A stretch of 48,954 nt of DNA from a virus: IMG/VR virus record IMGVR_UViG_3300025137_000065, positions 1-48,954 of that record; one strand, 5' to 3'. Below the pieces are notes generated by a model. That model was given only the letters and a program-made list of their open reading frames with translations. It did not search any database and was not told the origin of the DNA. A program made the position numbers and the translations under genes. Shown one piece after another: positions 609 to 40,579 of this stretch. Each line of letters opens with the position of its first letter. Position 1 is the first letter of the stretch.

Positions 609-829
609 AGTATACAATAAGCAGCTCACAATTAAAAGCTTTTTTTTGTACTATTTAAACTTTTTTGCATAGGGGAGGGGTTTTCTGAAAATTTTTGACT
701 TTTGTACTTGACACACAAAGCGCGGGGGGTGGTGAATACTATATAGAAAGTTATTTTTATAAATTAGGGGATGCGCCATATAATAAAATACAGCTACAAG
801 GTTAGAACCCGTGTAATAGATAAAAACCA
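609..829. other. Non-coding gap between divergent units
   Basis: About 220 bases separate the minus-strand gene ending its leader at 608 from phoH. The stretch is strongly AT-rich with a G-rich run at 722-729. A TTGACA at 708-713 has no -10 box at a usable distance. TATAAATT at 758-765 resembles a T4 late promoter by one mismatch. The most convincing signal is CGTGTAATA at 810-818, listed separately. A long minus-strand frame crosses this gap but has phage-atypical composition and lies antisense to phoH. Confidence 0.5.
810..815 (+). promoter_or_regulatory. GTGTA-type promoter-like motif before phoH
   Basis: CGTGTA followed by AT lies 14 bases before the phoH ATG. The same core, GTGTA plus A/T, precedes at least nine other plus-strand units in the window. 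No -35 box accompanies it. Role as a phage-specific promoter is inferred. Confidence 0.4.
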
Positions 830-1504
830 ATGGCAAAAGACAACAGCTTATTATTGGGTCATATTGAATTGACAAAGAAACAAAAAGATTTTTACGACAT
901 AATGACTGACGATAAAACACGGATAGTGTTTGTTGGAGGTCCAGCAGGAACAGCAAAGACATTTTTATCGGTTTATAGTGCATTAGATTTATATAATAAC
1001 GACAAAAACTTAAAAATATTATATTTGAGGAGTGTTGTTGAGAGTGCGGATAGGGGGATAGGTTTTCTGAAAGGAGACATTGATGATAAGTTTGGGCCAT
1101 ATATGGCACCCCTTTTAGATAAGATTGATGAGTTATTAAATAAGCCAGAGAAAGAGCAATTAAAAAATAAAAGGGTACTGGAAGCGGAACCGATAAACTT
1201 TTTGCGCGGATGTACTTGGAGAGATAAGGTGGTTATTGTTGATGAGGCTCAGAATATGAGTGTGAGAGAATTGACTACTGTGCTTACAAGGATAGGTCGT
1301 GGGAGTAAGTTGTTTATATGTGGAGATAGTTTGCAGAGTGACATTAGGAATAGTGGTTTTGATAGGCTTAAGTCTTTATTTGAGGACGAGACTAGTTCCA
1401 AAAAAGGGGTATGTAGTGTATCATTTGGGAAAGAAGATGTGATAAGAGATAAAATTATCAGTTATCTTGTAGAAAAAATTGAATTATTAACCCCGAAACA
1501 ATAA
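830..1504 (+). CDS. phoH: PhoH-like P-loop ATPase
   Basis: PhoH-family proteins are P-loop ATPases common in aquatic phages; their role in infection is unsettled, with proposals in RNA metabolism and the phosphate-starvation response. The 224-residue protein shows GGPAGTAKT (Walker A, residues 36-44), VVIVDEAQN (Walker B, 134-142) and a CGDSLQSD sensor-type motif near 164-171. The length fits the stand-alone phage form. The start at 830 follows a GTGTAATA motif; no Shine-Dalgarno sequence is seen. It heads a plus-strand run that continues, with small gaps and overlaps, into the terminase genes. Confidence 0.93.
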   Translation: MAKDNSLLLGHIELTKKQKDFYDIMTDDKTRIVFVGGPAGTAKTFLSVYSALDLYNNDKNLKILYLRSVVESADRGIGFLKGDIDDKFGPYMAPLLDKIDELLNKPEKEQLKNKRVLEAEPINFLRGCTWRDKVVIVDEAQNMSVRELTTVLTRIGRGSKLFICGDSLQSDIRNSGFDRLKSLFEDETSSKKGVCSVSFGKEDVIRDKIISYLVEKIELLTPKQ

Positions 1505-1513
1505 AATTTCTAT

Positions 1514-1882
1514 ATGAATAAAGTATTTTGTTCTTCCTGCGGCCACAAGAATGTGTACGAGGTGACTAAACCAAAGTTTTGTGCTGATTGTGGCGCTCCT
1601 ATTGGGTTATCCTCTGCCCTTCCTGAAAAAAAAGTGGAAGCCGACATTGAGTATGAGGTAGAACAACCTCGTAAGCTTGATCTTAGGAGATTAAAAAATG
1701 ATATTGTTGCCGAAGTTGGGGATAACCAAGGAACTACTCTAACTGATTTGTGGAAATCTGCTACTCCAGATTCCGCTAATCGTTTTGATCGTCCAGCGCC
1801 CAATCTACCTGATGGTGAAGCTATGATCAAACAGAGTCAGGCTGATTGTGCTTCCTCAAGAGTTCAAGATATTGATGGATAA
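1514..1882 (+). CDS. Zinc-ribbon protein, 122 residues
   Basis: The N-terminus has two CxxC pairs, CSSC at residues 6-9 and CADC at about 23-26, spaced as in a short zinc ribbon (CGHKN...CGAPIG). The rest is hydrophilic, with an acidic stretch, a LDLRRLKNDI helix and a proline-rich tail, and is probably disordered. It begins nine bases after phoH and its end overlaps the start of the sigma-like gene, so the three genes are probably co-transcribed. Zinc ribbons of this type often mediate nucleic-acid or protein binding, for example to RNA polymerase. The specific function is not known. Confidence 0.75.
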   Translation: MNKVFCSSCGHKNVYEVTKPKFCADCGAPIGLSSALPEKKVEADIEYEVEQPRKLDLRRLKNDIVAEVGDNQGTTLTDLWKSATPDSANRFDRPAPNLPDGEAMIKQSQADCASSRVQDIDG

Positions 1883-2549
1883 AAGGTACGAAGACCTTGT
1901 CCCAGAGATAGAAGCACTTTTAAATAGATATAGAGCGAAGTGGCAACTTAACTCTCTTGCGTGGTTAGATTATGACGATGTGTCTCAAATAATTCGCGTT
2001 CATTTATTTAATAAATGGCACCTATGGGATCAGAAAAGAGCATTTAAGCCTTGGGCTTCTATGGTGATGGGAAATCAGATTAAAAACCTGATAAGGAATC
2101 ATTATGGTAATTTTGCTAAACCTTGTCTAAGGTGTGACCATTACATGGGGGGTGAAGAATGTGCTATGACTAAAAGTGGCAATCAAGATGATTCATGTTC
2201 ATTATTTTCTAAATGGAAAAATAAAAAACAATCTGCTTATCATTTAAAGATGGCGGTATCTTTGGATTCTTTAATTGCGGTTAAAGATGAGGTTTTTGAT
2301 GAAGAGTTTGATTATGATACCAAATCTTCTAAGATTCACGGTTTAATAATGAAACAATTGGGGGATAAGCATAAGGAGATATATAGGTTGTTATACATAG
2401 AGCATTGGGATGAAGAAAAGGTGGCTCAGAAGTTTGGGTTTAAAAAAGACACTAGTAAGAGAAAAACCCCTAGATATAAACAAATAAATAACTTGAAAAA
2501 GAAATTTTACAACATAGCATTGAAGGTAATAAAAGAGGAGGATCTATGA
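1875..2549 (+). CDS. Sigma-70-like factor with a four-cysteine insert
   Basis: The 224-residue protein has the arrangement of a divergent sigma factor. Residues 30-78 resemble region 2: an acidic DYDDVSQII helix, then a W-rich helix and a MGNQIKNLIRNHYG helix. A cysteine cluster follows (C84, C87, C96, C108), probably a zinc-binding insert. Residues 160-220 resemble region 4: HKEIYRLLYIEHWDEEKVAQKFG and a basic C-terminus like a helix-turn-helix. I prefer the ATG at 1875 to an in-frame GTG at 1848, because the latter would overlap the upstream gene by 35 bases. Its likely role is to direct host RNA polymerase to phage promoters. Assignment rests on pattern, not on an alignment. Confidence 0.55.
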   Translation: MDKRYEDLVPEIEALLNRYRAKWQLNSLAWLDYDDVSQIIRVHLFNKWHLWDQKRAFKPWASMVMGNQIKNLIRNHYGNFAKPCLRCDHYMGGEECAMTKSGNQDDSCSLFSKWKNKKQSAYHLKMAVSLDSLIAVKDEVFDEEFDYDTKSSKIHGLIMKQLGDKHKEIYRLLYIEHWDEEKVAQKFGFKKDTSKRKTPRYKQINNLKKKFYNIALKVIKEEDL

Positions 2550-3604
2550 TATACGACTTAACAGAAGAGCAGAAAGAACAGATTTTAAAACTATTTAAAA
2601 AGAACCCTGACTTAATGTTTATAACCCGGAAGATATTTAATGATGAGAATATTGACGGTAGATCTAAACAAGGCAGAGCGGTTAGGAAGTTTCTAGCTCA
2701 ACAAGATAAAAAAGCAAATACTACATTGTCCCCGAAGGTAGAGCAAATTTATTTAAATAAAGAACAAAAAGAGTTCTTAATGACTGATAATGTTGAAGCG
2801 GGGATGAATGCTTTAGAAATAGCCAGACTTACCTTCAAAGATAGGGGTATACAGTCGTTGAGCATGAAACATCGAGTTATTGTTGATTTCCTAAAAACTT
2901 ATCGTCCTGAAATAGTTGATGACAATGAAATAGTGACAAAAGAAAAATGGGTAGCTCCAAAATCACTAAGCAGAGCTATCACTAAAGTAAATAATTTTTG
3001 CTCGGCACAATTAGAAGAATTATCCCTTCAAACAAAGCAAAAGAAATTAATAGAGCAATTAATCATATATTTACGTAGCCCAAGGTTCAACCACTTCATA
3101 AATCAATATACAACTCTAGCTGACCGCAACTTATTCGAAAGTGAGTTTGTTAGGGCTGTTTGGGATAAGCCTGACCTAACTAATGACGAATTGAACTTGT
3201 ATGTGACCGTGTGTACCAACTACGTGCGCCAAAAACACATCCAGCAGCGCATTGACAAGCTTAATGCACTACTGGACGACCAAGACAACGAAAGAGACAT
3301 CACAATGCGTCTGACGGAGATTATCAAGGCTACTAGCGATGAGCTTAACCAGTGCGAAAAACGGATTGAATCCTTGACGAAGGATCTTAATGGATCTAGG
3401 ACTGCTCGACTTAAAGCTAAGGGAGAAGAAAACGGATCTATCTTTGCTTTGGTTGAAGCGTTCCAAGAACGAGAAGAAAGAGACCGTATGATCATGATGG
3501 CTGAACTCCAAAATAAATTAATTGAAGAAGAAGCTGACAGGTTGGAGAGTATGGACGATTATAAAGCAAGGATATTGGGGATATCCAAAAAAGAATTGTT
3601 ATGA
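2546..3604 (+). CDS. Helical protein, possible small terminase subunit
   Basis: The 352-residue product has two helix-turn-helix-like segments (about residues 5-50 and 85-118, the latter with NALEIARLTFKDRG) and long charged helices likely to form coiled coils from about 225 to 340. A small terminase needs a DNA-binding N-terminus and an oligomerising helical body, and the gene lies two genes before the large terminase, so that role is plausible. It overlaps the sigma-like gene by four bases (ATGA) and is preceded by GAGGAGG, one of the few strong Shine-Dalgarno sequences here, although that stretch also encodes the upstream C-terminus. Base composition turns more GC-rich from about 3190 to 3480. 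Alternative: an unrelated DNA-binding protein. Confidence 0.4.
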   Translation: MIYDLTEEQKEQILKLFKKNPDLMFITRKIFNDENIDGRSKQGRAVRKFLAQQDKKANTTLSPKVEQIYLNKEQKEFLMTDNVEAGMNALEIARLTFKDRGIQSLSMKHRVIVDFLKTYRPEIVDDNEIVTKEKWVAPKSLSRAITKVNNFCSAQLEELSLQTKQKKLIEQLIIYLRSPRFNHFINQYTTLADRNLFESEFVRAVWDKPDLTNDELNLYVTVCTNYVRQKHIQQRIDKLNALLDDQDNERDITMRLTEIIKATSDELNQCEKRIESLTKDLNGSRTARLKAKGEENGSIFALVEAFQEREERDRMIMMAELQNKLIEEEADRLESMDDYKARILGISKKELL

Positions 3605-4551
3605 ATAACTTTGTTTGTAAAGAATGTGGTAAGGCTTACGATAGCCGAAGAGGGTTCCACGCTCACCTAAAAGCACACAGCGTTTCCATAGGGGAGTACT
3701 ATGTGGAACATTACGCCAAAAGAGATTTATTTACGAACGAGCTACTAAAATTTAAAAACTACGACCAGTATTTTATGGAGGATTTTAATCAACCAGAGAA
3801 TTACATGTCTTGGTTAAAAACAACCTCACCAATAAAAGCTAAAAATCACCTTATAGAGTATACAAAAAGAAAATTTGGGAATAAAGATGTTAAGTTTACC
3901 CCTCCTGATCTTTACTATATGTTAGCTAAACTACCGAATATAGATTACTATAGAAAAATGTGGAGTTCTTACTCTGACTTTTCAAAAGATTTAGGCATAG
4001 AGTCTTGGTTCTCTAAAAACCTACCAAAAGACTTCTGGGAGAAGAACCACAATGACCTTCCTATTTTTGTAGATACAAGGGAGCAAAAACCACTAAAATT
4101 TGAAAACGGCGTAAGCAACAAGTTAGACTTCGGTGATTATACAGCCGCAGGTAAATATTACTCAAAAACATTCGTAGATAGAAAAGCACAAGATGACTTC
4201 AGGCAAACATTCGGGAAAGATATTAAAAGATTTAGGCGGGAAATGGATCGTTGTGTCCAGTTTAATTCTTACATGTTCATTGTTGTCGAGTCTTCTATTG
4301 AAAAAATCGAAGAAGACAACAAAATATCGAAGTTTAAATCGAACCTAGGTTATTTGTGGCACAATGTGCGAGATCTAATGCTCGATTACCCAGAGAATGT
4401 ACAATTCATTTTTGCATACTCAAGGGCGGGAGCTAAAAAGATAATCCCCAAAATATTATATCACGGCCAAGGCTTATGGCATGTTGATGTACAATATCAT
4501 TTAGAGAAAAAAGTTCATGGCATGGCAGAAAGGAAAACAGCGGTATCGTAA
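3601..4551 (+). CDS. C2H2 zinc finger fused to ERCC4-type nuclease
   Basis: Residues 4-30 form a C2H2 finger (CKECGKAYDSRRGFHAHLKAH). The middle, about 30-150, is not recognised. From about 155 the protein has the ERCC4/XPF nuclease pattern: VDTREQKPL, then LDFGDYT, then FVDRKAQDDF, matching the family signature GDxnERKx3D with D in place of E. ERCC4 nucleases cut branched or flap DNA in a metal-dependent way. The gene overlaps its upstream neighbour by four bases and the large terminase by 35, suggesting tight coupling with packaging. It may resolve branched replicative DNA before packaging, as T4 gp49 does with an unrelated fold; this is inference. Confidence 0.72.
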   Translation: MNNFVCKECGKAYDSRRGFHAHLKAHSVSIGEYYVEHYAKRDLFTNELLKFKNYDQYFMEDFNQPENYMSWLKTTSPIKAKNHLIEYTKRKFGNKDVKFTPPDLYYMLAKLPNIDYYRKMWSSYSDFSKDLGIESWFSKNLPKDFWEKNHNDLPIFVDTREQKPLKFENGVSNKLDFGDYTAAGKYYSKTFVDRKAQDDFRQTFGKDIKRFRREMDRCVQFNSYMFIVVESSIEKIEEDNKISKFKSNLGYLWHNVRDLMLDYPENVQFIFAYSRAGAKKIIPKILYHGQGLWHVDVQYHLEKKVHGMAERKTAVS

Positions 4552-6412
4552 TGATTACTCCGCTACGGAATTTAATTCTTATTTAAAAACACTCGACGGC
4601 GACTTGCCTGACGAGGAAGCAAAGTATTTATTATATAAGTTCTTAAGGGCTAATATTGCATTTACCTCTGAGTTATTTTTAGGGGTAAAATTATTTCCAT
4701 TTCAGGCTATGGCTATTAAGGGGATGATGGTATCGGACTATTCTATGTTCGTATTCTCCCGTGGTATGTCTAAAACATTTTCTACAGCTATTTATGTGCT
4801 ACTTGAGTGTCTTTTAAACCCTACCGCAAATATAGGTGTTATTGCAGGTAGCTTTAGGCAATCAAAACAAATATTCCAAAAGATGGAGGATATACTCAGC
4901 AAGCCCGAAGCAAAGTTAGTAAAAGAGTGCGGAGTTAAAATCACGAAAGGAACTGACCAATGGACCCTCAAAATTGGTAATAGCCGTGCGATAGCCCTTC
5001 CGTTAGCTAATGGAGAACGACTGCGTGGATTTCGATTTAATAGGATAGTGCTAGATGAGTTCTTAACAATACCAGAAAAGATATTCAATGAAGTTATTAT
5101 TCCATTCCTTGGCGTAGTGGAAAATCCAATTGAAAGAGAGGAACTGCATAAACTAGAATCCCGCCTAATCGACAAGGGCGAGCTGAAAGAAAATGAAAGG
5201 TATGTATGGCCTAATAACAAACTTATAATACTTTCATCTCCATCCTTCAAATTTGAATACATGTTCAAACTCTACAAGAAGTATGAGGGGCTTATTCTTG
5301 GAGAATTTGATTTAAATAAAGATGATGATGAAGAGCAAGCTGCTGATGATGCTTATAGATTAATTATGCAATTAAGTTATGATTGTGCTCCTACTAGGCT
5401 GTATGATCAAAACCTGCTTAAACAAGCTAAAGCTACGATGTCTGAGATGCAGTTCAAACGAGAGTTCGGTGCTCAATTTGTAGATGAGAGTGATGGTTAC
5501 TTTAGATTATCTAAAATGGCGGCTTGCACTATTGCTGATGGAGAATTTCCTGCTGTTGAAGTTGTAGGTAACCCAAGTGATGAATACTTACTTGCTTTTG
5601 ACCCTAACTGGGCTGGCAATACAAGTGCTGACCACTTCGCTATGCACGTATTTAAGGTTCTGAAGGACGAACAGAAGATTTGCCTTGTTCATAGCTACGC
5701 TTTGGCTGGAGTGTCCTTAAAAGACCACATGAGGTATTTTCTCTACCTTATAAAATCTTTTAATATTGTCGGTATATGCGGTGACTACATGGGAGGAGTC
5801 CAATTTATTAATTCTTGCAATGAAAGCCAATTGTTTAAAAGAGCAAAAGTTGATATAGGAATTATAGAAGTGGATTTAGAAAAACCCGATCAATGGCACA
5901 ATGATATACTTAGTTTTAAGGGTCAATATAATCAGAAAGAAAGGAGGTATTGTATCTTAAGGAAACCTACAGTTAACTGGATCAGAAGTGGCAATGAGAT
6001 GTTACAAGCAGCTATAGACCATAAAAGAATACTATTTGCTTCCAGAGCGGTAGACGATCACTTTGATCAACAAAGGAAAAAGAACTTACCTATTGATGAG
6101 ATAAAGTGGGATAATAAAATTACAGCTACTTCCAAAGGAGCAAAAATGATTGACTTCCTTGATCAACAAAAAAGTAACATTGAACTTACAAAGTCAGAAT
6201 GTGCTAACATTGAGGTCACCACAAACCCCCAAGGTTCACAATCGTTTAACTTGCCTCAAAACATTAGAAGACAAAAAGGGCCGAATAAAGCTCGTAAAGA
6301 CTCTTATTCTGCTTTAATTTTGGGGAATTGGTTTGCCAAAGTATATTTTGATTCTTTACATGTTGAGCCTAAGAAAAAACCTACTGCTTCATTTATACCG
6401 TTTACTATTTGA
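4517..6412 (+). CDS. terL: Terminase large subunit
   Basis: This is the ATP-driven motor and nuclease that packages DNA through the portal. The 631-residue protein has an ATPase domain with SRGMSKTF (Walker A-like, residues 81-88), RIVLDEF (Walker B, 176-182) and LIILSSPS (coupling motif, about 236-243). The RNase H-like nuclease domain shows FDPNWAG (D362), GDYMGG (D423) and a late acidic residue in RKDSYSALILGNWF near residue 597. The start lies within the ERCC4 gene, 35 bases before its stop. A perfect 11-bp inverted repeat follows the stop codon. Confidence 0.93.
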   Translation: MAWQKGKQRYRNDYSATEFNSYLKTLDGDLPDEEAKYLLYKFLRANIAFTSELFLGVKLFPFQAMAIKGMMVSDYSMFVFSRGMSKTFSTAIYVLLECLLNPTANIGVIAGSFRQSKQIFQKMEDILSKPEAKLVKECGVKITKGTDQWTLKIGNSRAIALPLANGERLRGFRFNRIVLDEFLTIPEKIFNEVIIPFLGVVENPIEREELHKLESRLIDKGELKENERYVWPNNKLIILSSPSFKFEYMFKLYKKYEGLILGEFDLNKDDDEEQAADDAYRLIMQLSYDCAPTRLYDQNLLKQAKATMSEMQFKREFGAQFVDESDGYFRLSKMAACTIADGEFPAVEVVGNPSDEYLLAFDPNWAGNTSADHFAMHVFKVLKDEQKICLVHSYALAGVSLKDHMRYFLYLIKSFNIVGICGDYMGGVQFINSCNESQLFKRAKVDIGIIEVDLEKPDQWHNDILSFKGQYNQKERRYCILRKPTVNWIRSGNEMLQAAIDHKRILFASRAVDDHFDQQRKKNLPIDEIKWDNKITATSKGAKMIDFLDQQKSNIELTKSECANIEVTTNPQGSQSFNLPQNIRRQKGPNKARKDSYSALILGNWFAKVYFDSLHVEPKKKPTASFIPFTI

Positions 6413-6440
6413 AAAGTTATAAAGTAACTTTTATAACTTT
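6413..6440 (+). terminator. Hairpin after terL, possible terminator
   Basis: AAAGTTATAAA (6413-6423) and its exact reverse complement (6430-6440) flank a six-base loop. The stem is AT-rich and the run of T after it is only three bases, so termination would be weak. It abuts the GTGTA motif at 6441, so it could also shape that promoter. Confidence 0.4.
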
Positions 6441-6446
6441 AGTGTA
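6441..6446 (+). promoter_or_regulatory. GTGTA-type motif before the portal gene
   Basis: AGTGTA followed by AC starts directly after the inverted repeat and lies 12 bases before the portal ATG. It matches the recurring intergenic motif. Confidence 0.45.
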
Positions 6447-6458
6447 ACAATTGTTAGC

Positions 6459-8423: not shown

Positions 8424-8428
8424 GTGTA
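8423..8428 (+). promoter_or_regulatory. GTGTA-type motif before the protease gene
   Basis: AGTGTA lies four bases before the ATG at 8433 and overlaps the end of the portal stop codon. Its GTG could be mistaken for a start codon. It matches the recurring motif. Confidence 0.4.
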
Positions 8429-8432
8429 TAGA

Positions 8433-9962
8433 ATGAATATGGACTTAAAAGATTTTGAGGTAAGTAGCTTTGATTGTAATATCAGAGCGCTTAAAGAGAG
8501 TGATTATGATAAGTTTGGAATATCAGAAGGTTCTATTGCAGAAGCAGCTAAATCTTTACTACCTGAAGATTTCGATCCATCAGCAAATGTAGATGTACTT
8601 CCTGTAGTATTCAACCTTGCTGTAGTAAATGAATTTAATAAAAACGGCGACGGTATTGATTCAGAAACAGCAGTATCAGCAGTAAAGAGATTTATCAATA
8701 AGCCTATCAACATTGAACATAAGAAGCATAAAATCGTCGGTCACATGATTAATGCTTCTTTTTCTGTAGAGGAGATGGATTTTAAGGATAACGCTGTTGA
8801 CTCTTATGCAGACAAAAAAGAACCGTTTTATATCAACGCTGCTGGTTTAATTTATAAAAATATCTTCCCAGAACTTGCTTATGCTATTCAGGAAGCTGCC
8901 AACGAAGAAAATGAAGAGTATCAGAGTATTGCTACTAGTTGGGAACTTGCATTTAAAAACTATAAAGTTGTCTATGGATCAGATAGATTGGATGAGTGTG
9001 AGATCGCCGAAGGTTCACAGGAAGAGGAACTTAAGCAGTACGTAAAGGGATTTGGAGGTAAGGGAGTTGATAAAGAAGGCACTCCGGTTCATAGATTAAT
9101 TTATGGAGAGACTTACCCTTTGGGGGCTGCATTGACGTATAAACCTGCAGCAAGAGTTAAAGGAATTTATACTTCAGAACCAAATAAAAAAGAAAAGCCT
9201 GTTGATAATTCTTTAGCGAAAGAAGATAATATTAATATTAAAAATTCCCTAAAGGAAGAAAACAATGTAACAAATAACAAAATCGATATTTTTGATATGG
9301 ATAAAGAACAATTCGAAACACTAATGACACAAGTTGCAGAAAGCGTAGCTTCCGTTGTCAAGAAGGACGATCAAGCCGCTTCTGTCGGTGAGATTATGCG
9401 TGATGCCCTTAACGAGCATTCTGAAAACTGGAAATCCAAGGTTCAACTTGAAACTGAAGCTCGTGAAAAGGCTGAAGTTGAGGCGACTGAGATGAAAGCT
9501 TCTCTTGAGGCTGTTCAATCTGAGTTATCCTCTCTCAAGTCTGAGGTTGAAGCTCAAGCTGCTGTTGAGTTATTTAATTCTCGTATGACCTTTATTGATT
9601 CCACATATGAACTAACCGAAGCTGAGCTTAAGTTAGTCGTAGATGAGTTAAAGTCTGTTGAAGCTTCTGACGAAGCCTTTGATACCTTTAAAGGAAAACT
9701 TTCTATTCTTTTCGCTAGCAAGACCAAAGAGGCCATTGCTGCTCAGGAGGAAGAAGTCAAAGCTAAGATTGAAGAAGCTATCGCTTCTAAACTCCAGCAA
9801 GACGAGCCTGAAGAGAAAGAGGAAGTTAAAGCTAGCGAAGATGAGCTGGAAGTCGAAGAGGTTGAAGCCGCTCCGATTCCGAACAACAACGCTGAAGCTT
9901 CTGAACAAATCTCTTTGGTTGAGAAACTTAAAGAAAACTTCTCTGTTGAAGTAACAAAATAA
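8433..9962 (+). CDS. Prohead protease fused to scaffold
   Basis: The first 240 residues look like a prohead serine protease: NIEHKKHKIVGHMINASF (residues 93-110) offers the catalytic His and EEYQSIATSWELAF (161-174) the nucleophile region. From about 285 to 490 the chain becomes a long, acidic, Ala/Glu/Lys-rich coiled coil typical of a scaffold core, ending SVEVTK. Such fusions make a protease that cleaves its own scaffold during head maturation. I start at ATG 8433 (509 residues); an upstream in-frame GTG at 8424 is part of a promoter-like motif. A second ATG at 8439 is also possible. An internal start making scaffold alone, as in some phages, would have to lie near the DIFDMDKEQ segment (9298). 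Confidence 0.7.
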   Translation: MNMDLKDFEVSSFDCNIRALKESDYDKFGISEGSIAEAAKSLLPEDFDPSANVDVLPVVFNLAVVNEFNKNGDGIDSETAVSAVKRFINKPINIEHKKHKIVGHMINASFSVEEMDFKDNAVDSYADKKEPFYINAAGLIYKNIFPELAYAIQEAANEENEEYQSIATSWELAFKNYKVVYGSDRLDECEIAEGSQEEELKQYVKGFGGKGVDKEGTPVHRLIYGETYPLGAALTYKPAARVKGIYTSEPNKKEKPVDNSLAKEDNINIKNSLKEENNVTNNKIDIFDMDKEQFETLMTQVAESVASVVKKDDQAASVGEIMRDALNEHSENWKSKVQLETEAREKAEVEATEMKASLEAVQSELSSLKSEVEAQAAVELFNSRMTFIDSTYELTEAELKLVVDELKSVEASDEAFDTFKGKLSILFASKTKEAIAAQEEEVKAKIEEAIASKLQQDEPEEKEEVKASEDELEVEEVEAAPIPNNNAEASEQISLVEKLKENFSVEVTK

Positions 9963-11751: not shown

Positions 11752-11757
11752 AGTGTA
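11752..11757 (+). promoter_or_regulatory. GTGTA-type motif after the capsid terminator
   Basis: AGTGTA followed by AA lies ten bases after the terminator T-run and 17 bases before the next ATG. Its place between a terminator and a gene supports a promoter role. Confidence 0.5.
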
Positions 11758-11774
11758 AACCTTTAATATAAGTT

Positions 11775-17375: not shown

Positions 17376-17381
17376 CGTGTA
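17376..17381 (+). promoter_or_regulatory. GTGTA-type motif after the tail-tube terminator
   Basis: CGTGTA followed by AT begins on the base after the terminator T-run and lies 11 bases before the next ATG. Terminator, motif and gene follow one another directly. Confidence 0.5.
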
Positions 17382-17392
17382 ATACATTAATA

Positions 17393-19472: not shown

Positions 19473-19478
19473 AGTGTA
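19473..19478 (+). promoter_or_regulatory. GTGTA-type motif before the tape-measure gene
   Basis: AGTGTA followed by TTTAATTA lies ten bases before the ATG at 19489. As at 8424, its GTG is in frame with the gene and could be miscalled as the start. Confidence 0.45.
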
Positions 19479-19488
19479 TTTAATTACA

Positions 19489-22400
19489 ATGGCTGCTCCA
19501 ATTAACATTAACGCTAATTTAAACCTAAATCCAGCTAGCATCAATGCTTCTGCTAGGCAGGTACAGCAAGCTTTAGGTAGAATAACAGGTCAAGCTTCTG
19601 AATTTCAAAAATCTCTAGATGCTTCTACAGCTCGTGTTTTTGCTTTTGGTGCCACCACATCTATTATTAATGGGATTACACAGTCGTTTAAGGCTTTAGT
19701 TTCTACTACGGTCAATGTTCAAGCCAAGCTAACGGAAATAAATAGTATATTAGGGGCGGGGGCTACTGAATTCAATAAATACAGGAACTCCATCTTCCAA
19801 GTTGCTAAAGAGACAGGGCAATCATTTAATACTGTTGCAAGTGGAGCTGCTGAACTGGCGCGTCAGGGACTAGGAGCCACAGAGAGTGCTAAGAGGCTTC
19901 AAGCCGCTTTAATCCTAACTAGAATATCTGGATTAGGGGCAGAGCAATCAGTAAAGGCTCTTACAGCAGCTATGAATGGATTTACTTCTGCTGGGTTAAC
20001 TGCTAATCAAGTTGTGAATAAAATTGTAGCAGTCGATACTGCTTTTGCTGTTTCAGCTCAAGACCTCGCAGACGGATTTAGTCGAGCAGGCTCTACAGCT
20101 GAAGATGCCGGAGTTAGTTTCGATGAGCTTCTTGGTTTAATTACGGCTGTAGAACAAAGAACTGCTAGAGGTGGAGCTGTTATAGGTAACGCATTTAAGT
20201 CTATTTTTACAAGAATCAGCCGTGGTAGCACGATTGAAAAGCTGAAAGAATTAGGTGTCGAAATTGATGCTAATCAGACGGGGGTACAAAAACTTCAAGC
20301 GTTGTCCAAAGCTTTAGAAGGTTTAGCTGACCCTACTATTGCGAGTCAGATAAAAGAACTTGCAGGTGGAGTTTTCCAGATTAACGTTGTCAGTGCTGCC
20401 TTGAAAGACATTGGGTCTCAAACTTCTGTATTCGCAGAAGCTACGAAAGTAGGAATGGGCGCAGCAAATGAGGCTACGGAGAAAAACGCCAAATTAAACG
20501 AAACTTTACTGGCTCAATTGAACAAACTGACAGTAGCTGTTACGAGTTTTGCTGAGAAGTTGGGTGATTTAACTTTAGGGCCACTCTTGAAAAATGTTGT
20601 TGGTTTAGCTACTACCTTATCTGAAGGTTTGGATCGTGCATTAGACCCTGAAAGGGGTAATGCATTTGTTCAGGGTTTATTTAAGATTATTGGCGGTTTT
20701 TTATCTGGTCCGGGTTTAGCTATCTTTACAGTAGCATTTGCAAAAATATTTAAAACTGTCATCAGGTTTGCTAGAGAAGGATTCTCTACCATCATGAAGA
20801 TGGGTACAGCTGCAGAAAAAATAAGCCAGATTGAAACTGGCCTTATTGGATTATTACAAAAAGATGCTGCTTTAAGGAAAACGCTAGAGAGCACTACAGC
20901 CTCTCAAGCAACAAAAGAAAAGGCGGTTATCGATGCTATTAGAAGAGAGAACGCTCTTCTTTCTGCACAGCAACAGATTGTAACAAATATTTCTAATATA
21001 GCTAGGCAGGGAGGTGTCACTGGATATAGCGCCTCTTCTGGCTCTTTTAAAGGCAAGGGGGGCAAGCGATACGCTTCTGGTGGTAATGGTGTAATGGAGC
21101 CAGACTTAATGACCGCAATGGTCAATGAGTCTAGGGACTCTCCAGCAGGGGCATCCCCTTACGTCACTAACTTTAGAGGTAGCCCAGCTGTAATGAATAC
21201 TTCTGAAATGCAGGTAAGTATTGGAGGTCGTGAAGAAATTCTCACAGCTGGTCAAATCCCTAGATTTAACAAAGGCTCTTCTTTAAAAGCAAATAGGAAG
21301 AGGGCTTTAAATAGAGATGGAAAGTTCATCATGATGCATGGCGAACAAACAGGTTATAAATTAAACCGTTTTTATATGGGTCAAAGTCCAAAAAACCCAA
21401 GTAAAGCTGGTCAACCGACTAAAAACCCAACTGAAAATAATAAAACCTTAGTTAATGTCCCTACTTATGGAGTTCCTAGAGATAAAAAAAACTTCGGAGA
21501 TATTAATTCTATAGTAAAAGGGCTAAAAGATAGCAGTGTTAACGAGGCAATAAAAGTAGCTAAAAGAATGTCTAATGGCGTAATGCCGAAAGGGAAAGAA
21601 GGCATTATTAAAGGAGCTGTATCTAAGCAAATTAATGAGGGAACAGTTAAGGCTTTTGCGGGAAACATCCAAGAAATGGGATTAGCGAGTTTGTTGACAG
21701 ATGATAAGTTTAAAGACTACACTAATCAAAGTACTGGGTCTACCTTTGATTTAGATCTATCTGGGCAAAAAGCTCTCAAAGGATTCTATAAAGTAAGGAG
21801 GCATAAGGCTCATACTGGAGAGGTAAAAGGATCAGGGAATGATGGTTTGGCAGGAGATACTGCTCGAAAGATATTTCGAGTTTCAAAACTAGGAGAATCC
21901 ATTCATTCTCATAGAAATGAAAAGGGGATGACTAAATCAGAGTTTAAGAAAAAATTCCCAAATGGTGTCGGACCAAAAGGAACAAAATTCCAAGGAGTGC
22001 AAAGCGCAATCTTCGGGAAGAACAAAGGTAAGCTCCCAAAACTAAGTCAAATTACTTCGAAATTTCCCAGAAACTCGAAAGGCACTATTAGTAATTCTAG
22101 GCTAGCTTCTAGAATTGGAATTCGCCGTTTCAATTCGGGGTCTATGGACAGGAATAAAATGTTTTCTTTTGGCGGACAGGGTAGATTCTCACTAGACGAT
22201 GTTGCAGGTAATGCTGCTTCACAAATCTCACAAGCAAAAAGTAGTAGTGATTTAACTCAAGCATATCGGGAACAGAGGAAGGAAGTAACAAAGCTTGCTA
22301 AGGCTCAAGGATTAACCAAAGAAGCTACTAAAGATTTAATAAAATCCGAACGCAAAAATGCTACCGAAAGGGGTAGAGGCATGAAAAGTGGAGGGTTTAA

Positions 22401-24148: not shown

Positions 24149-25696
24149 ATGAGTCTTATAGTAAATAACGTTGTAAATGCTTCATCTCAGATAAGTTATT
24201 CTTACTTGGGATCGGAAGAGATATTTGGTTATTTGATAACTTCAAATTATTCTATAAAAATTGAAGATATAAGTTTTGATAATGATGATGGAGTTTTATT
24301 ATCTGGAAGGGCTGCAATAAGGCAAGCTTATAAAAAACAAAACATAACTGCTAGAATAGCTGGAGACGAAATACACAATGGTCTTATCACAAGCTTATCT
24401 TTTTCAGAAGGTGCTTTAGTTGGTGAAGAAATCGCTAACGTAACCATAGAAGAAAGAAGAAGGTTGAGCAGTTACAGTTCTAAAGTTTTTTCAAAATACA
24501 TACCAAGCCCTCATTTAATTGAATCATTTGATGAGAACTATACATTTTCAAGGTCTAGCTCCACTTATTCTTATAGTAGAAATATTTCCATTCAATATGC
24601 ACAAGATGCTGGAAGTCAATTTTTAACAAATGCTAAGGTATTTTTAACAAATTATTATTATGAGAATAGACCACAAATAGGTTATTATGAAGACGGCATA
24701 TCTGAAAATGCTAAGTTTAATTCAGGATATAATGGTACACTTTCAGAGAGTATAGACTTGGTTAGCTTAAAGGTCGATTTACAAGAGTCTTTCGAATCTT
24801 CTTTTATTGAATCTTCCCAAGGTGTATCAAAAAAAATCAAAAACTCATTTTCTGTAGATGATACTGGTTATTTGTCGAAAACAATATCTATAGATTTAAC
24901 TTCATTAAAGTATGACTCTCAACGTGTTTTAGAGAAAGCATTAGGTGACACAGTAGATTCTATAATCACACAAGAGTATGCTAGTTTCGGTAATCCTTTT
25001 TCCATAGAGAAGGGGATTAGTAAAGACTCAAATTCTGCGACTCTTTCTATAAAATTTTCGACTAATCCAAGGCTATCCCAAGATAATTCTGTAACCTACT
25101 CCTGCAAAAAGTCAAAGGATGGAGCCTTTTTAAATTATGAATTATCCGCTAGTTATAAAAGTAAGGGTAAAAACATACTGCAAAGGTATGATAATTTGAT
25201 TGCGTTTTGGTCATCCGCCAAGGGCAAAAATGAGGAAAAGGTAAACGGATTATTTCCCGAATCTAGTAACTTAATTTTTGAAAAATCGAGAAGCTCTAGC
25301 ATAAGCAGAACTTCTGGTACTGTAAACGAAACTATTGTTTTTTCGACAGATGACTCTTATAATACAGGAGGCTTGCCTACTGGTATAATAAAATATAAAA
25401 TAAACGTAGACAAACAGGAGAAAAACAAAAGAAACTCTGTGGTTTTAGATTTGATGAATTTAAAAGAAAAGATTGTGAGGTCAAATTTAGATAGTTTAGG
25501 GTCTGCTACAGTTACAGCTACTGCAATAGCTCATCCTAGTTATGGATTACTAAAATCAAAAGATTTTTTAAATTCTAAAACATCTGATATGAATAATTCT
25601 TTAGAAGAGGCTGTTTATTACGCCACAAGTGACGTACTAACTACTGATTTTATTAATGGAACAACAACTCGTGTAATAAACTATATAATAGCTTGA
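24149..25696 (+). CDS. Distal tail protein, beta-rich repeat type
   Basis: The 515-residue protein is the first gene after the tape measure. Its first 110 residues are a beta-rich domain with a conserved-looking HNGLITSLSFSEGALVGEEI. From about 130 it alternates beta strands and a helix such as GSQFLTNAKVFLTNYYYEN or QRVLEKALGDTVDSI, each followed by S/N/Y-rich strands. The same module recurs in the downstream protein, so the two are probably related. Position suggests distal-tail or tail-tip structure. It is not matched to a named family. Confidence 0.55.
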   Translation: MSLIVNNVVNASSQISYSYLGSEEIFGYLITSNYSIKIEDISFDNDDGVLLSGRAAIRQAYKKQNITARIAGDEIHNGLITSLSFSEGALVGEEIANVTIEERRRLSSYSSKVFSKYIPSPHLIESFDENYTFSRSSSTYSYSRNISIQYAQDAGSQFLTNAKVFLTNYYYENRPQIGYYEDGISENAKFNSGYNGTLSESIDLVSLKVDLQESFESSFIESSQGVSKKIKNSFSVDDTGYLSKTISIDLTSLKYDSQRVLEKALGDTVDSIITQEYASFGNPFSIEKGISKDSNSATLSIKFSTNPRLSQDNSVTYSCKKSKDGAFLNYELSASYKSKGKNILQRYDNLIAFWSSAKGKNEEKVNGLFPESSNLIFEKSRSSSISRTSGTVNETIVFSTDDSYNTGGLPTGIIKYKINVDKQEKNKRNSVVLDLMNLKEKIVRSNLDSLGSATVTATAIAHPSYGLLKSKDFLNSKTSDMNNSLEEAVYYATSDVLTTDFINGTTTRVINYIIA

Positions 25697-36225: not shown

Positions 36226-36231
36226 AGTGTA
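36226..36231 (+). promoter_or_regulatory. GTGTA-type motif before the fibre-like gene
   Basis: AGTGTA followed by ATG lies in the 38-base gap between the divergent SSB and fibre-like genes, 26 bases before the latter's start. It points at the fibre gene. Confidence 0.42.
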
Positions 36232-36257
36232 ATGTTCTTTAGATAATCTATTGTATT

Positions 36258-37277
36258 ATGCCGTATAGCAAAATTCAACCACAACAATTACAACTCCCAA
36301 CTTTTATAAGCCATAGCGGGGATATTACATTTACCGATCAAGTAACTGGCGTAAATGCTATTCTTAACAGGACTTTAAATGGAGACTTTAATTTTTCTCA
36401 CTCTTTAACTATCGCCTCTAAGGAGGTTATCACTACGGCCAATTCTAACAATACCTCTAGTACTAGTATAGCTTTAGGTGGTGTAAATAATACCGTGACA
36501 GGGGCTAATAATGTTTTAGTCAATGGTTCGAGTAATACAGCATTTTCGGGAGATTATAACGTTCTTCTGAATGGGATCTCAAATGATTTCGGAGCTAGTG
36601 GGCAAAATAATACCATTGTTGCAGGTAAATCTGTTGTTCTTGGAGATAAAACCACGGGTTGCGTTGTCATTGCAGATCATAAAACATCTATAAGTCATAG
36701 CACTAACGAGTCTTTACTTATAAACTTCGCTAGCGGAACTACCATTGCTGGTGGAGATGTTTCCATAGGCGCTCATCTTGAGGTTACTTCACCTCATTCT
36801 GGGAGATTTAGAGGGAATACTCATTTCGATGGGTCTGCAGAGTTTGACGGGTCTGTTGTTTTCGATGGTGGTATTAGTATGAATGGTAATGTGGTTAGTG
36901 CTGTTACCTTCCAAGGACCATCCGTGAATTTTAATAGCTCTGCAGAATTTAATACGCCGATTACAGGTAATTCTACCGTAACTTTATCTGATGGCACTGA
37001 AGCTGCCTCTCAAGGATGGGCTGGCGTTAGAGTTGCCCATAACCCTTCCTCCTATCTTGTAAATACTCATCATGCAGCGGCAACTAGAGCTAATCAGACA
37101 TCGAAAGGTAGTGCAATTGCTGGCGTAGCAGAAATCGTTACAGGTTATATTATAACAGGATATAATAGTGCTACTAACCCGGCACATAAGGCTCATTTCG
37201 TAGTAGAAACTCCTTCTTTCACAGGAGCCCTGAAATTTGATTATTTTAACACCTCATTGATAGACCAGACTACCTAA
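36258..37277 (+). CDS. Tail fibre-like or adhesin-like protein
   Basis: The 339-residue protein has imperfect N-G repeats at about 65-135 (SIALGGVNNTVTGANNVLV, then NTAFSGDYNVLLNGISN), the beta-roll pattern of trimeric adhesin heads such as YadA. A second group of short FDGS repeats (HFDGSAEFDGSVVFDGG) lies near 193-209, and the C-terminal 100 residues form a separate domain, possibly for receptor contact. It is an isolated plus-strand gene between minus-strand genes, has its own promoter-like motif and converges on an FmdB-like gene with a four-base overlap. The composition fits a virion fibre, but no chaperone or collar gene lies nearby. Confidence 0.58.
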   Translation: MPYSKIQPQQLQLPTFISHSGDITFTDQVTGVNAILNRTLNGDFNFSHSLTIASKEVITTANSNNTSSTSIALGGVNNTVTGANNVLVNGSSNTAFSGDYNVLLNGISNDFGASGQNNTIVAGKSVVLGDKTTGCVVIADHKTSISHSTNESLLINFASGTTIAGGDVSIGAHLEVTSPHSGRFRGNTHFDGSAEFDGSVVFDGGISMNGNVVSAVTFQGPSVNFNSSAEFNTPITGNSTVTLSDGTEAASQGWAGVRVAHNPSSYLVNTHHAAATRANQTSKGSAIAGVAEIVTGYIITGYNSATNPAHKAHFVVETPSFTGALKFDYFNTSLIDQTT

Positions 37278-37658: not shown

Positions 37659-38741
37659 TTAGTAGATCCTCTCTAGAATTTTTTCAATTGTTTTTTTATA
37701 GGTGAATTCTTCTTGAAGTTTTAGTCCTTCTGTGTTCTCAGACTTAGCCATTTGTATTGATTGATCCATAGCGTCACCTATATGTTCTCCATTTAGTCTG
37801 TAATATTCTCCTTGGTTAAATTGACCACCTTCTCTGAAGAATACATTATCGTAACATGGTTGTTTACCTATAGGATCAACCAAGATCGCGTTATTTTCAT
37901 TAGCCCAATCTTTATGTGAGGTACAATTGCTAACAATGGACCACTTTCCGAGAGCTGTAGCATTAAAAGACGGTAGATTCCAACCTTCTCCATTCGAAAG
38001 ACCTGAAAGGTCTATATCAATAGAATTAATTAATTCATTAACTTCACTATTAGTCTCTAACCTAGGTAAAATATTTACGTTAGAGTAGGTTTCGTTATTT
38101 AGCGATAATTTAATTTGATCATCCATTTGTTCCTTATTCAAGAAGGGGTTTCCAACCAAACAACTAAGTTGATACCTTGGGTTATTGCCAAATTTTCTGC
38201 ACCATAGTTGCATCAAAGCTTGCGTATTTTTTCTACGCTCCATTTTCCCTATAATCCCAAAGTGTATAATATCATCTCCTAAATAACTTTTGTTTGTAAC
38301 ATGGAAGTCTTTATCAAACCCTAATGGAACATAAGATACATTATCACACCCTTTCGATTTAAAAATTTCAGCAGCCTCGGAGCAAGAGAAAAAAACATGA
38401 TTCTGAGCTTTCACTATGTTTATCTCCTCTTCTGTCGGGGAATCAAGCTCATAGAACGAATACAAGAATTGATTATCTGATACTTTCTTCTCAGATCCAT
38501 TGATATGCCAAACCTTTAGTGTGGGGGTGTTTCTATCTAATTTTTTTAGATTATTCAACGCTTTGTCTTTTATCCATTCAAAAAAATCTTGAGACAATTT
38601 ATCGTAGGCTTTTAGATCAGATCTTCCCATAGGGAAGATATTTAAATCTAAGTCTTTTTCTTTTAATTCTCTAGCAAAGTTTAGTGACACATTGCCTAAA
38701 CTAAGGGAATTGAAGGGTACGTCTAAGTTTAATTTACGCAT
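37659..38741 (-). CDS. GT4-type glycosyltransferase
   Basis: The 360-residue protein has the GT-B layout: an N-terminal half ending near SYVPLGFDKDFHV (about residue 137-149), then HFGIIGKMERRKNTQALMQL (161-180) as the start of the nucleotide-sugar half, and GLSNGEGWNLPSFNATALG near 250-268 as the conserved E-x7-E-type site. It belongs to a minus-strand operon with the second sigma-like gene, which it overlaps by eight bases, and the FmdB-like gene. The acceptor is unknown; candidates are host lipopolysaccharide, virion proteins or phage DNA. Confidence 0.7.
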   Translation of the reverse strand: MRKLNLDVPFNSLSLGNVSLNFARELKEKDLDLNIFPMGRSDLKAYDKLSQDFFEWIKDKALNNLKKLDRNTPTLKVWHINGSEKKVSDNQFLYSFYELDSPTEEEINIVKAQNHVFFSCSEAAEIFKSKGCDNVSYVPLGFDKDFHVTNKSYLGDDIIHFGIIGKMERRKNTQALMQLWCRKFGNNPRYQLSCLVGNPFLNKEQMDDQIKLSLNNETYSNVNILPRLETNSEVNELINSIDIDLSGLSNGEGWNLPSFNATALGKWSIVSNCTSHKDWANENNAILVDPIGKQPCYDNVFFREGGQFNQGEYYRLNGEHIGDAMDQSIQMAKSENTEGLKLQEEFTYKKTIEKILERIY

Positions 38742-39324
38742 TGTTCTTAATTTGTTTTTGGAATTCTAGTAAAGTTCTATCGTGTATATTTATACAGCCT
38801 TGAGCAGATAAGCCAAGCCCTTGACTAATCTTTTTCCAAGTTTTTAGCTTACCTCTTTCCCCACCGAAATACCTTTCTTTAAAAATAAATTTTACTCTTT
38901 CATCTGAATGATCATTGATCATATTAATAATATCAAGGAATGCCTCTCCCAATTGACATTTTTCATTTGGTAGTAGTTCGCTTGATTCTTCAGCGTATTC
39001 GATAGAATCGAAGGATAAAGTTTTATTATTCTTTTTACAAGCAGTTTTCTTGCTTAAACATAAGTACTTCGCTTTGTTGCCAACATGAGTAGAAAATTTC
39101 GCCTTACTCTCATCATACTCTAGAGCTGCTTTGTAAATAACATAATCTTTCTCATTCATTAAGTCATAAATCTGATTAATCGATAATGACTTAGATCCGT
39201 ATCTTTTTACCATATCGGCGTAAATACCAGAATGTCTACTTATTAGCATATTTAAAGCATCTTCGTTGTCGTCTTCTTTAACTAGATTTGTTAAATAAGG
39301 GTCTGTTTCTTCTGAGAACTCCAT
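38734..39324 (-). CDS. Second sigma-70-like factor
   Basis: The 196-residue protein resembles a compact sigma factor of T4 gp55 size. Residues 22-95 look like region 2 (EDALNMLISRHSGIYADMVK, then KYDESKAKFSTHVGNKAKY with KAALEYDESK just before). After a short charged linker, 125-193 looks like region 4, with VKFIFKERYFGGERGKLKTW, a KISQGLGLSAQGC turn and an INIHDRTLLEFQ helix. Gp55-type factors direct late transcription from a -10 box alone. Its own leader contains GGTGTAGATTATA on the minus strand, close to the motif found on the plus strand. Assignment is by pattern only. Confidence 0.5.
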   Translation of the reverse strand: MEFSEETDPYLTNLVKEDDNEDALNMLISRHSGIYADMVKRYGSKSLSINQIYDLMNEKDYVIYKAALEYDESKAKFSTHVGNKAKYLCLSKKTACKKNNKTLSFDSIEYAEESSELLPNEKCQLGEAFLDIINMINDHSDERVKFIFKERYFGGERGKLKTWKKISQGLGLSAQGCINIHDRTLLEFQKQIKNNA

Positions 39325-39348: not shown

Positions 39349-39354
39349 TACACC
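39349..39354 (-). promoter_or_regulatory. GTGTA-type motif before the second sigma-like gene
   Basis: Read leftwards, GGTGTA followed by GATTATA lies 24 bases before the ATG at 39324. It is the only clear minus-strand copy of the recurring motif before a gene, which suggests the gene could be self-regulated. Confidence 0.35.
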
Positions 39355-39433: not shown

Positions 39434-39495
39434 GGATACGTATCCTACCGTTGTAGTAAGGATACGTATCCTACCAGTGCTGTTAGGATACGTAT
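39434..39495 (+). repeat. Iterated 12-bp palindromes with 26-bp period
   Basis: GGATACGTATCC, a perfect palindrome, occurs at 39434-39445 and 39460-39471; a third copy, GGATACGTAT plus TT, lies at 39486-39497. Spacing is exactly 26 bp both times, and CCTACC plus a TTGTA/GCTGT part also repeat between units. ACGTATC at 39414-39420 is a partial fourth copy, 24 bp further left. Regular palindromes are typical of operator or iteron arrays. Confidence 0.75.
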
Positions 39496-39589: not shown

Positions 39590-39595
39590 TGTGTA
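39590..39595 (+). promoter_or_regulatory. GTGTA-type motif before nrdB
   Basis: TGTGTA followed by AC lies after the terminator and 12 bases before the nrdB ATG, the same terminator-motif-gene order as at 11752 and 17376. Confidence 0.45.
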
Positions 39596-39607
39596 ACTTA
39601 TTAAGAC

Positions 39608-40579
39608 ATGATTTTCGAAGAGCAAGTATCACGTAAGCCAGACCATTATTCATGGGCTGGGGATTTTATCGAAGCAATGCACAACGGGTTTTGGACCGAC
39701 AAAGAATTTAGTTTCGCTTCTGATATACAGGACTTTAACGTGGTTCTTGATGATCAAGAAAAAGAAATAATTGTGCGGACTTTATCTGCTATTGGCCAGA
39801 TCGAGGTAGCTGTTAAAAAGTTCTGGAGCAAACTTGGTGACAATTTGCCGCACCCCTCTCTTAGTGACTTGGGTTTTGTTATGGCTAACGTGGAAGTTAT
39901 TCACAATAACGCTTACGAAAGGCTACTTGAAGTACTTGGTTTGGAAGAGGTATTCGAAGAAAACCTAAAGTTGGATTTTATCGAGGGACGAGTAAACTAT
40001 TTACGTAAATATACCCACAGGTTTTACAAAAATAGCAAGAAGCAATATGTTTATGCCTTAATCTTGTTTACCCTTTTCGTAGAGAATGTGTCGTTATTTT
40101 CTCAATTTTACGTCATAAACTGGTTTGCTCGTAATAAAAATGTCTTAAAAGATACAGACCAGCAAGTGAAGTATACAAGAAACGAAGAAAATTTACATGC
40201 TCTTGTGGGGATGAAGCTTATAAATACTATCCGTGAAGAGCATCCAGAATTATTTGATGAAGAGCTTGAGGAAAGAATTGCCCAAGAAGCAGTTTGCGCT
40301 TTTGAAGCTGAAAGCAAGATCGTGGACTGGATGATTAATGGCATCCGTCAAAAAGGATTGAACGCCATTGTATTAAAAGAATTTATTAAAAATAGAATAA
40401 ATGAGTCGATGCAACAAATTGGCTTTAAAGAGCCTTTTGAGGTTGACAAAAATCTGCTGAAAGATACCATCTGGTTTGAAGAGGAGTTACTTGGCAATAA
40501 TGCTACAGACTTCTTTTACTCTAGACCCGTGGAATACTCAAAGAATTCACAAACTTACAATGCAGACGACTTGTTCTAA
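39608..40579 (+). CDS. nrdB: Class I ribonucleotide reductase, small subunit
   Basis: The 323-residue protein makes the radical for reduction of ribonucleotides to deoxyribonucleotides, boosting dNTP supply for phage replication. The ligand and radical residues are visible: E66 in QIEVAVKKFW, E96 and H99 in NVEVIHNNAYE with the candidate radical Y103 (matching E115, H118 and Y122 of the E. coli enzyme), E159 in LFVENVSLFS, and E194/H197 in RNEENLHALVG. The first ligand is Glu rather than the usual Asp of class Ia. The stop abuts the nrdA ATG, so the two are one operon. Confidence 0.92.
   Translation: MIFEEQVSRKPDHYSWAGDFIEAMHNGFWTDKEFSFASDIQDFNVVLDDQEKEIIVRTLSAIGQIEVAVKKFWSKLGDNLPHPSLSDLGFVMANVEVIHNNAYERLLEVLGLEEVFEENLKLDFIEGRVNYLRKYTHRFYKNSKKQYVYALILFTLFVENVSLFSQFYVINWFARNKNVLKDTDQQVKYTRNEENLHALVGMKLINTIREEHPELFDEELEERIAQEAVCAFEAESKIVDWMINGIRQKGLNAIVLKEFIKNRINESMQQIGFKEPFEVDKNLLKDTIWFEEELLGNNATDFFYSRPVEYSKNSQTYNADDLF

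Follow-up and report, generated by a model that had tools for sequence, protein, structure and literature searches.

We analyzed a 48,954-nucleotide stretch of viral DNA, hereafter the window, which comprises positions 1 to 48,954 of IMG/VR record IMGVR_UViG_3300025137_000065. Near its start, a block of plus-strand genes extends from a PhoH-like ATPase to the terminase large subunit and includes a gene for a sigma factor with four cysteines between its two domains. The genes of this block and the parts of the sigma factor are listed below.

830 to 1504, plus strand: PhoH-like ATPase (phrog_170, E 2.7e-60), in 72 of 97 loci
1514 to 1882, plus strand: zinc-ribbon protein of 122 amino acids (CX2C...CX2C), in 96 of 97 loci
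1875 to 2549, plus strand: sigma-70-family (ECF-like) sigma factor of 224 amino acids, assigned from PF04542, PF08281, TIGR02937, and structure matches to ECF sigma factors
1875 to 2123, plus strand: sigma region 2 domain, residues 1 to 83, from the model on 4lup_A and 8b3z_F
2124 to 2240, plus strand: four-Cys module CX2C-X8-C-X11-C plus helix 109 to 122, residues 84 to 122, from Cys conservation, spacing, and the modelled helix
2241 to 2303, plus strand: variable linker, residues 123 to 143, starting [PA]-[LV]-x-[LI]-[DE], from the columns of alignment A3 and TIGR02980
2304 to 2546, plus strand: sigma region 4 domain, residues 144 to 224, from structural matches to 2h27_A, 3hug_K, and 6onu_D and from phrog_1740
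2546 to 3604, plus strand: conserved gp3 of 352 amino acids, in 118 of 118 loci; no Pfam or PHROG match at E 0.05 or lower
3601 to 4551, plus strand: C2H2 finger plus ERCC4-type nuclease (phrog_3490, E 1.6e-10; zf-C2H2 below its cut-off), in 118 of 118 loci
4517 to 6412, plus strand: terminase large subunit (phrog_2, E 1.3e-27), in 118 of 118 loci

Upstream genes were counted in loci with 2 kb or more of sequence upstream, and downstream genes in loci with 4.8 kb or more downstream; duplicates were kept, and matches anywhere in a locus were counted. To judge from its position, gp3 is possibly the small terminase subunit. The sigma gene is taken to start at the ATG at 1875, which overlaps the stop codon of the zinc-ribbon gene (ATGGATAA); the GTG start of the ORF listing, at 1848, lies 9 codons further upstream.

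An earlier note, made from the sequence of the window, had drawn attention to the zinc-ribbon gene upstream of the sigma factor, and the neighborhood counts bear this out. Among the rows shown, the zinc-ribbon frame starts 163 to 490 nt before the sigma frame, and of 133 distinct ribbon sequences, 132 or 133 retain the four cysteines. Gene neighborhood makes the ribbon a candidate partner of the sigma factor; since gp3, the nuclease, and the terminase are equally linked, this neighborhood is not specific to it. Four of the six zinc-ribbon members printed (L144, L135, L154, and L120) end in basic, AT-hook-like C-terminal tails of the GRPRK or RGRKP type, and the window copy has no such tail.

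Relatives and family assignment

Three scans of viral contigs yielded 173 distinct loci. The sigma family is common in these contigs: in one scan, 438 of 464 candidate stretches were confirmed as relatives. The best 80 of 438 confirmed relatives were used from the second scan and the best 80 of 570 from the third. No pattern used in these later two scans contained a cysteine, and of the six used in the first, one did. These loci, together with the window, the copy in the window's own record (L001), and two unrelated phage stretches, were searched by profile, which gave 175 places, 146 of them distinct. Alignment A3 has 98 rows, namely, the window protein and 97 of the 102 cluster representatives of 171 loci; the lowest identity to the window protein is 37%, and a sample of 800 pairs gives a median pairwise identity of 48%.

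Named phages gave little. In tblastn searches of 50,697 phage records with three members of the sigma family, no significant match was found (two matches had E values of 7 to 8). Against named phages, tblastn with gp3 and the nuclease also gave nothing significant, the zinc ribbon gave one weak match only (E 0.3), and the terminase gave distant matches (23 to 29% identity among the best 20 of 50). The sigma factor of phage Staley, one of the distant terminase matches, has two cysteines that stand apart and form no cluster. In cyanophage ACG-2014f the A3 profile had no match, and in S-TIM5 it matched just part of region 2 (E 0.0015, model positions 17 to 76). Four relatives come from assemblies with the titles Flavobacteriaceae, Flavobacteriales, Halobacteriovorax, and "uncultured bacterium"; because at least three of the four are labelled as MAGs, these titles give no more than a hint of the host.

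In the window sigma factor, PF04542 (Sigma70_r2) matches residues 5 to 76 with 27.4 bits (Pfam cut-off, 24), phrog_1740 (RNA polymerase sigma factor) matches residues 144 to 202 with an E value of 7.8e-4, and the TIGR02937 score, 41.2 bits, is slightly under the curated cut-off of 42.9. Across A3, at E values of 0.1 or lower, PF04542 and TIGR02937 are each found in all 98 members (best TIGR02937 E value, 3.3e-14), phrog_1740 in 88, and PF08281 (Sigma70_r4_2) in 39, the window protein not being among the latter.

A structure model built from the 98 sequences of A3 has a mean pLDDT of 79. Its residues 1 to 83 superpose on region 2 of Escherichia coli sigma-E (4lup_A; rmsd 2.4 over 77) and residues 2 to 78 on 8b3z_F; residues 144 to 223 superpose on region 4 of sigma-E (2h27_A; rmsd 3.5 over 70), and residues 144 to 224 match solved sigma-4 domains with rmsd values of 1.6 to 3.5. 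The best VIA-align matches include 6dv9_F (Z 8.7), 6kop_F (Z 8.3), and 6jbq_F (Z 7.9); Z values of 7 to 9 are in the middling range for this program, and the 50 rows shown are all sigma chains or complexes by title. Foldseek found no PDB match to the whole model at E values of 0.001 or lower, in our opinion because the two domains are placed differently, the domain-level matches having come from VIA-align. A sequence-profile search for a solved structure found none. By profile match and by model, the window protein is a member of the sigma-70 family. It shares with the ECF sigma factors (sigma-E/RpoE, SigL, and SigH), which are among its best structural matches, the two-domain sigma-2/sigma-4 architecture and, at a score slightly under the cut-off, the TIGR02937 match.

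The four-cysteine module

The window sigma factor contains exactly four cysteines, C84, C87, C96, and C108, with codons at 2124, 2133, 2160, and 2196. These lie between the sigma-2 and sigma-4 domains, because structure comparison assigns approximately residues 1 to 83 to the former and 144 to 224 to the latter. The cysteines named in the earlier note, and their placement between regions 2 and 4, are thus correct when the protein is numbered from the ATG at 1875. In the interval given there for the cluster, 1950 to 2210, the cysteine codons fall in the second half (2124 to 2198, plus strand); the first half is region 2.

The same note had named loss of the cysteines in close relatives as the outcome that would speak against its idea, and the opposite was found. 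The four cysteines were found in every one of the 144 distinct relatives whose sequence spans the site, and the remaining two of the 146 distinct matches are contig ends that start after it. The cysteines are likewise present in 98 of 98 rows of A3, where variation is absent from only 26 of the 224 window positions (hypergeometric P for four given positions, 1.5e-4). Other cysteine columns of A3 reach at most 33 of 98 rows; no cysteine follows C108 in the window protein, and the A3 columns listed after it have at most 4 of 98. Chance occurrence of these cysteines is excluded by the conservation in 144 of 144 and 98 of 98 sequences. Judged by eye, the site also contains four cysteines in four more loci, from genome assemblies, and in one of these 9 rather than 11 residues separate the last two.

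The spacing in A3 is CX2C-X8-19-C-X11-C; the X2 and X11 segments are fixed, and the middle loop alone varies, from 8 to 19 residues, with the X8 form found in 38 of 98 members. Within residues 84 to 143, the invariant residues are the four cysteines and, in the helix that follows them, W114 and K118. The motif C-x-F-T-K-S-G-x-Q-D-x-x-C-P-x-[YF]-x-K-W is strongly kept, with the window copy deviating at several places. A CX2C...C...C arrangement with fixed outer spacing and a loop of variable length is typical of zinc sites. With four conserved cysteine ligands, the sequences point to a C4 metal site, most likely holding one structural Zn2+, which supports the comparison with a small zinc finger made earlier from the spacing; the X8-19 loop looks exposed and variable. 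The models were built without metal, and the module is of low confidence in them: block means of pLDDT are 56 to 73 for residues 81 to 120 in the second model, and residues 80 to 103 are below 50 in the first (28 sequences).

That the module is an insert, as the earlier note had claimed, agrees with two comparison profiles that leave 40 to 50 residues unmatched and with a second phage sigma factor (see below) that lacks it. TIGR02937 aligns 184 residues of the window protein (14 to 197) to 142 profile positions (12 to 153), which therefore leaves about 40 residues extra. The phrog_1740 sigma family is matched by most A3 members, but its alignment to the relative L120 sets 191 residues (24 to 214) against 139 profile positions (77 to 215), leaving about 50 extra. 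Unlike ECF sigma factors, which have a short sigma-2/sigma-4 linker, the phage-borne window protein has about 60 residues (84 to 143) with the conserved C4 module between its two domains, so that its linker is larger by about 40 residues.

The TIGR02980 (SigBFG) match begins at residue 128 of the window protein (E 0.005), and 42 of 98 A3 members match this profile. The linker segment after the module may thus resemble region 3.2, in which case the module would occupy the place of domain 3 in longer sigma factors. We infer from its position and from one Foldseek superposition that the module stands in for sigma-3; hhalign gave no significant match. The superposition is with a 230-amino-acid sigma factor of ACG-2014f, which had the top TMq among the best 50 rows from a viral structure library (TMq 0.51, E 6e-3); this structure was equated by name and length with an ORF in L207 that has scattered cysteines and no such cluster. 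When the window family was compared by hhalign with the ACG-2014f sigma factor, which has a longer, domain-3-like linker, the result was a probability of 2% over 32 columns in region 4.

A second sigma factor and the GTGTA element

The cysteine sigma occurs once in each of 11 records of 49 to 206 kb, which were picked for holding it, are all classed as linear, and are possibly fragments. The beta-subunit polymerase profile RNA_pol_Rpb2_6 was found in none of the 11 records, its control being positive in 14 of 14 genomes, and the sigma factor therefore probably retargets the host polymerase. A search for a single-subunit polymerase (PF00940) gave no match, but its control gave none either, and the negative result therefore carries no weight.

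A second sigma-70-family protein, without the cysteine module, is encoded at 38734 to 39324 on the minus strand (A4 profile and TIGR02937) and was found with the A4 profile in 9 of the 11 records. TIGR02937 matches the window copy weakly (17.1 bits, 170 residues on 164 profile positions) and a relative in L201 above the cut-off (46.6 versus 42.9). The second sigma has no cysteine cluster like C84 to C108, and comparing the profiles of both phage sigma families gave no significant result. Between its gene and the divergent gene at 39608, three copies of GGATACGTAT with an exact 26-nt spacing (39434 to 39495) form an operator-like array.

While reading intergenic gaps, we noticed that GTGTAA recurs before start codons. 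The following copies of the element were located in the window.

811 to 816, plus strand: GTGTAA, 19 nt upstream of the ATG of PhoH; candidate promoter of the gene block that includes the cysteine sigma
6442 to 6447, plus strand: GTGTAA, 17 nt before the portal ATG
8424 to 8428, plus strand: GTGTA, with the GTG start of the ORF listing inside the element
11753 to 11758, plus strand: GTGTAA
14688 to 14692, plus strand: GTGTA
17377 to 17382, plus strand: GTGTAA directly following a hairpin, recognized by eye, and a T-run
19474 to 19478, plus strand: GTGTA, with the GTG start of the ORF listing inside the element
25671 to 25676, plus strand: GTGTAA
36207 to 36212, plus strand: GTGTAA, first of two before the gene at 36258
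36227 to 36232, plus strand: GTGTAA, second of two before the gene at 36258
39349 to 39353, minus strand: GTGTA, 29 nt before the second sigma gene
39591 to 39596, plus strand: GTGTAA before the gene at 39608

The true start of the gene listed at 8424 is probably the next in-frame ATG, at 8433, or the ATG at 8439, and that of the gene listed at 19474 is probably the next in-frame ATG, at 19489. An AT-rich inverted repeat (AAAGTTATAAAGT / ACTTTTATAACTTT; 6413 to 6440) lies directly upstream of the portal GTGTAA and, by eye, recurs in varied form in many relatives.

Counts of 5-mers were made in the 42 nt upstream of the ATG of ORFs of at least 90 amino acids, called with our own script. GTGTA ranked first of all 5-mers in five of five contigs (the window, G003, G001, G009, and G002); in the window it preceded 11 genes, with 0.96 expected. 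Over 16 stretches, it was upstream of 60 of 279 genes; given that both strands together contain it 266 times, 4.04 genes would be expected (P 1e-50). Enrichment at P < 0.05 was seen in 13 of the 16, the exceptions being L192, L195, and L199. Its reverse complement, TACAC, was mildly enriched (12 genes, 4.04 expected, rank 35), perhaps from divergent gene pairs. In two unrelated phage stretches, GTGTA was not enriched (ranks 359 and 296) and GGAGG came first; this Shine-Dalgarno word was second to GTGTA in G001. When 6-mers were counted in 60-nt windows for the window alone, TAGATA was first (9 genes, 1.16 expected) and GTGTAA second.

GTGTA[AT] was present in 65 of 74 distinct sequences upstream of PhoH (2.8 expected) and in 41 of 54 upstream of the portal gene (2.4 expected), with expectations from base shuffles; being related, these sequences are not independent. 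A signal confined to the terminase side of the genome is not supported, as GTGTA is also enriched in stretches far from that region. A crude script placed terminators just upstream of 4 of 60 GTGTA sites and 1 of 217 other genes (Fisher P 0.008); it missed the hairpin at 17377 that is visible by eye. The distance from the G of GTGTA to the ATG peaks at 14 to 17 nt (31 of 68 sites within 100 nt). If the element is of the -10 type, this peak would put the start of transcription at or just before the ATG, and the phage mRNAs are then likely to have short leaders or none. No -35 element accompanying GTGTA stands out.

A translation signal could in principle take this form. GTGTA is a clade-wide promoter-like element, and it is likely that one or the other phage sigma factor reads it. 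That it belongs to the second sigma (38734 to 39324), with the cysteine sigma serving another target, is a substantial possibility, if short of even odds: the second sigma is a sigma-70-family protein of clade-wide distribution, and the GTGTA 29 nt before its own gene would fit autoregulation or a cascade from the first sigma. However, G009 is rich in GTGTA (7 genes, 0.23 expected) and the second sigma was not found there, G009 being possibly a fragment. The -10 element of ECF41, given as CGTC or TGTT in the available part of PMC3426412, is not far from the (A/C)GTGTA seen here, a resemblance that also counts against the second sigma. We infer that the cysteine sigma, rather than the second one, reads GTGTA.

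Possible roles of the module

The observations as a whole are best explained, in our estimate with a probability of about 0.6, by an ECF-like phage sigma factor that carries a C4 module and retargets the host polymerase. The protein encoded at 1875 would, to judge from its sequence, direct host RNA polymerase to phage promoters. We postulate that the phage relies on the host core polymerase and that the cysteine sigma would redirect it. The C4 module would lie between the DNA-opening half (sigma-2) and the half that binds the -35 element and the flap (sigma-4), at the place of domain sigma-3. One structural Zn2+ would make the linker rigid and folded and would help to place sigma-2 and sigma-4 on the polymerase. 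Contact between module and polymerase is plausible from its position, and the module may make contact with DNA immediately upstream of the -10 element. A linker stiffened in this way could fix the geometry for promoters in which the -10-like element is strong. We are doubtful of the fuller scenario in which, across a clade of sigma factors, the zinc module replaced sigma-3 and shapes promoter choice directly, by using a metal site to read the sequence next to the upstream side of -10, with -10-only GTGTA promoters, leaderless or nearly leaderless mRNAs, and perhaps hosts in Bacteroidota.

Other functions of the cysteines have to be weighed against a structural zinc site. They might form a metal- or redox-responsive switch that toggles the sigma factor during infection, as in CorE/CorE2 or OrbS, which show that metal-sensing sigma factors with cysteine motifs exist. 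According to the part of PMC8999054 available, CorE and CorE2 (formerly ECF44, now ECF238) have a CXC motif in the sigma2-sigma4 linker that is essential for activity, and both have a Cys-rich C-terminal domain, which CorE needs as well. OrbS (ECF243), in the available part of PMC9023288, carries a C-terminal CX2CX3CX5C motif as an on-board iron sensor, with Fe(II) inhibiting binding to core polymerase. The window family is like CorE/CorE2 in having cysteines in the sigma2-sigma4 linker and like OrbS in having a four-cysteine metal motif inside a sigma factor. However, it has CX2C, X8-19, C, X11, C in place of CXC, and all four ligands are in the linker rather than shared with a Cys-rich C-terminal domain; the OrbS motif is C-terminal and differently spaced. 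The motifs of CorE and OrbS, which lie elsewhere or are shorter, serve cellular metal homeostasis, and a phage timing factor would not obviously need metal sensing. The absence of conserved cysteines after C108 and the retention of four ligands with a folded-looking motif (C-x-F-T-K-S-G-x-Q-D, W114, and K118) also speak against a switch, which we consider improbable. Redox sensing, which the earlier note had offered as a function, gained no support, as neither a sensory domain nor switch-like variation was found.

Four conserved cysteines would also suffice for an iron-sulfur cluster, and WhiB-type Fe-S proteins act beside sigma region 4; WhiB1-SigA entries are among the structure matches of region 4. 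Such a cluster is nevertheless quite unlikely, given that the fixed outer spacing and variable loop of the CX2C...C...C pattern point to a zinc site and that WhiB is not among the 25 Pfam families listed for A3. The module might instead be a docking site for a phage protein, such as the product of the adjacent zinc-ribbon gene, with no part in promoter recognition. The nearly constant presence of that gene, the conservation of its cysteines, the basic tails of some ribbons, and the exposed look of the variable X8-19 loop in the sigma factor would all fit such docking; gp3, the nuclease, and the terminase are as tightly linked, and we regard docking as possible but not probable. A structural zinc module in a sigma factor that retargets the host polymerase is the reading that we prefer.

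Use of the host polymerase through a phage-encoded sigma factor has also been proposed for the "group 2" jumbo phages, whose sigma factors are thought to recruit it in the absence of a phage RNA polymerase (PMC7824862). This jumbo-phage survey also describes separate zinc ribbons, and its available part mentions no cysteine module in a sigma factor. Among the literature matches listed, from a search with most subscription journals outside its scope, there was no sigma factor, from a phage or otherwise, whose sigma2-sigma4 linker contains a complete metal site. What is new here is a sigma factor of the sigma-70 family into which a C4 module is built. It belongs to a large, widespread phage lineage that is known mainly from metagenomes and has no match among the named phages searched.

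Few bacterial proteins have been studied as thoroughly as sigma factors, and a fixed set of four cysteines between the two working halves is a new variation on this well-known protein type. With a candidate partner in the zinc ribbon and a candidate promoter in GTGTA, the transcription program of a phage lineage for which no isolate is known becomes testable.
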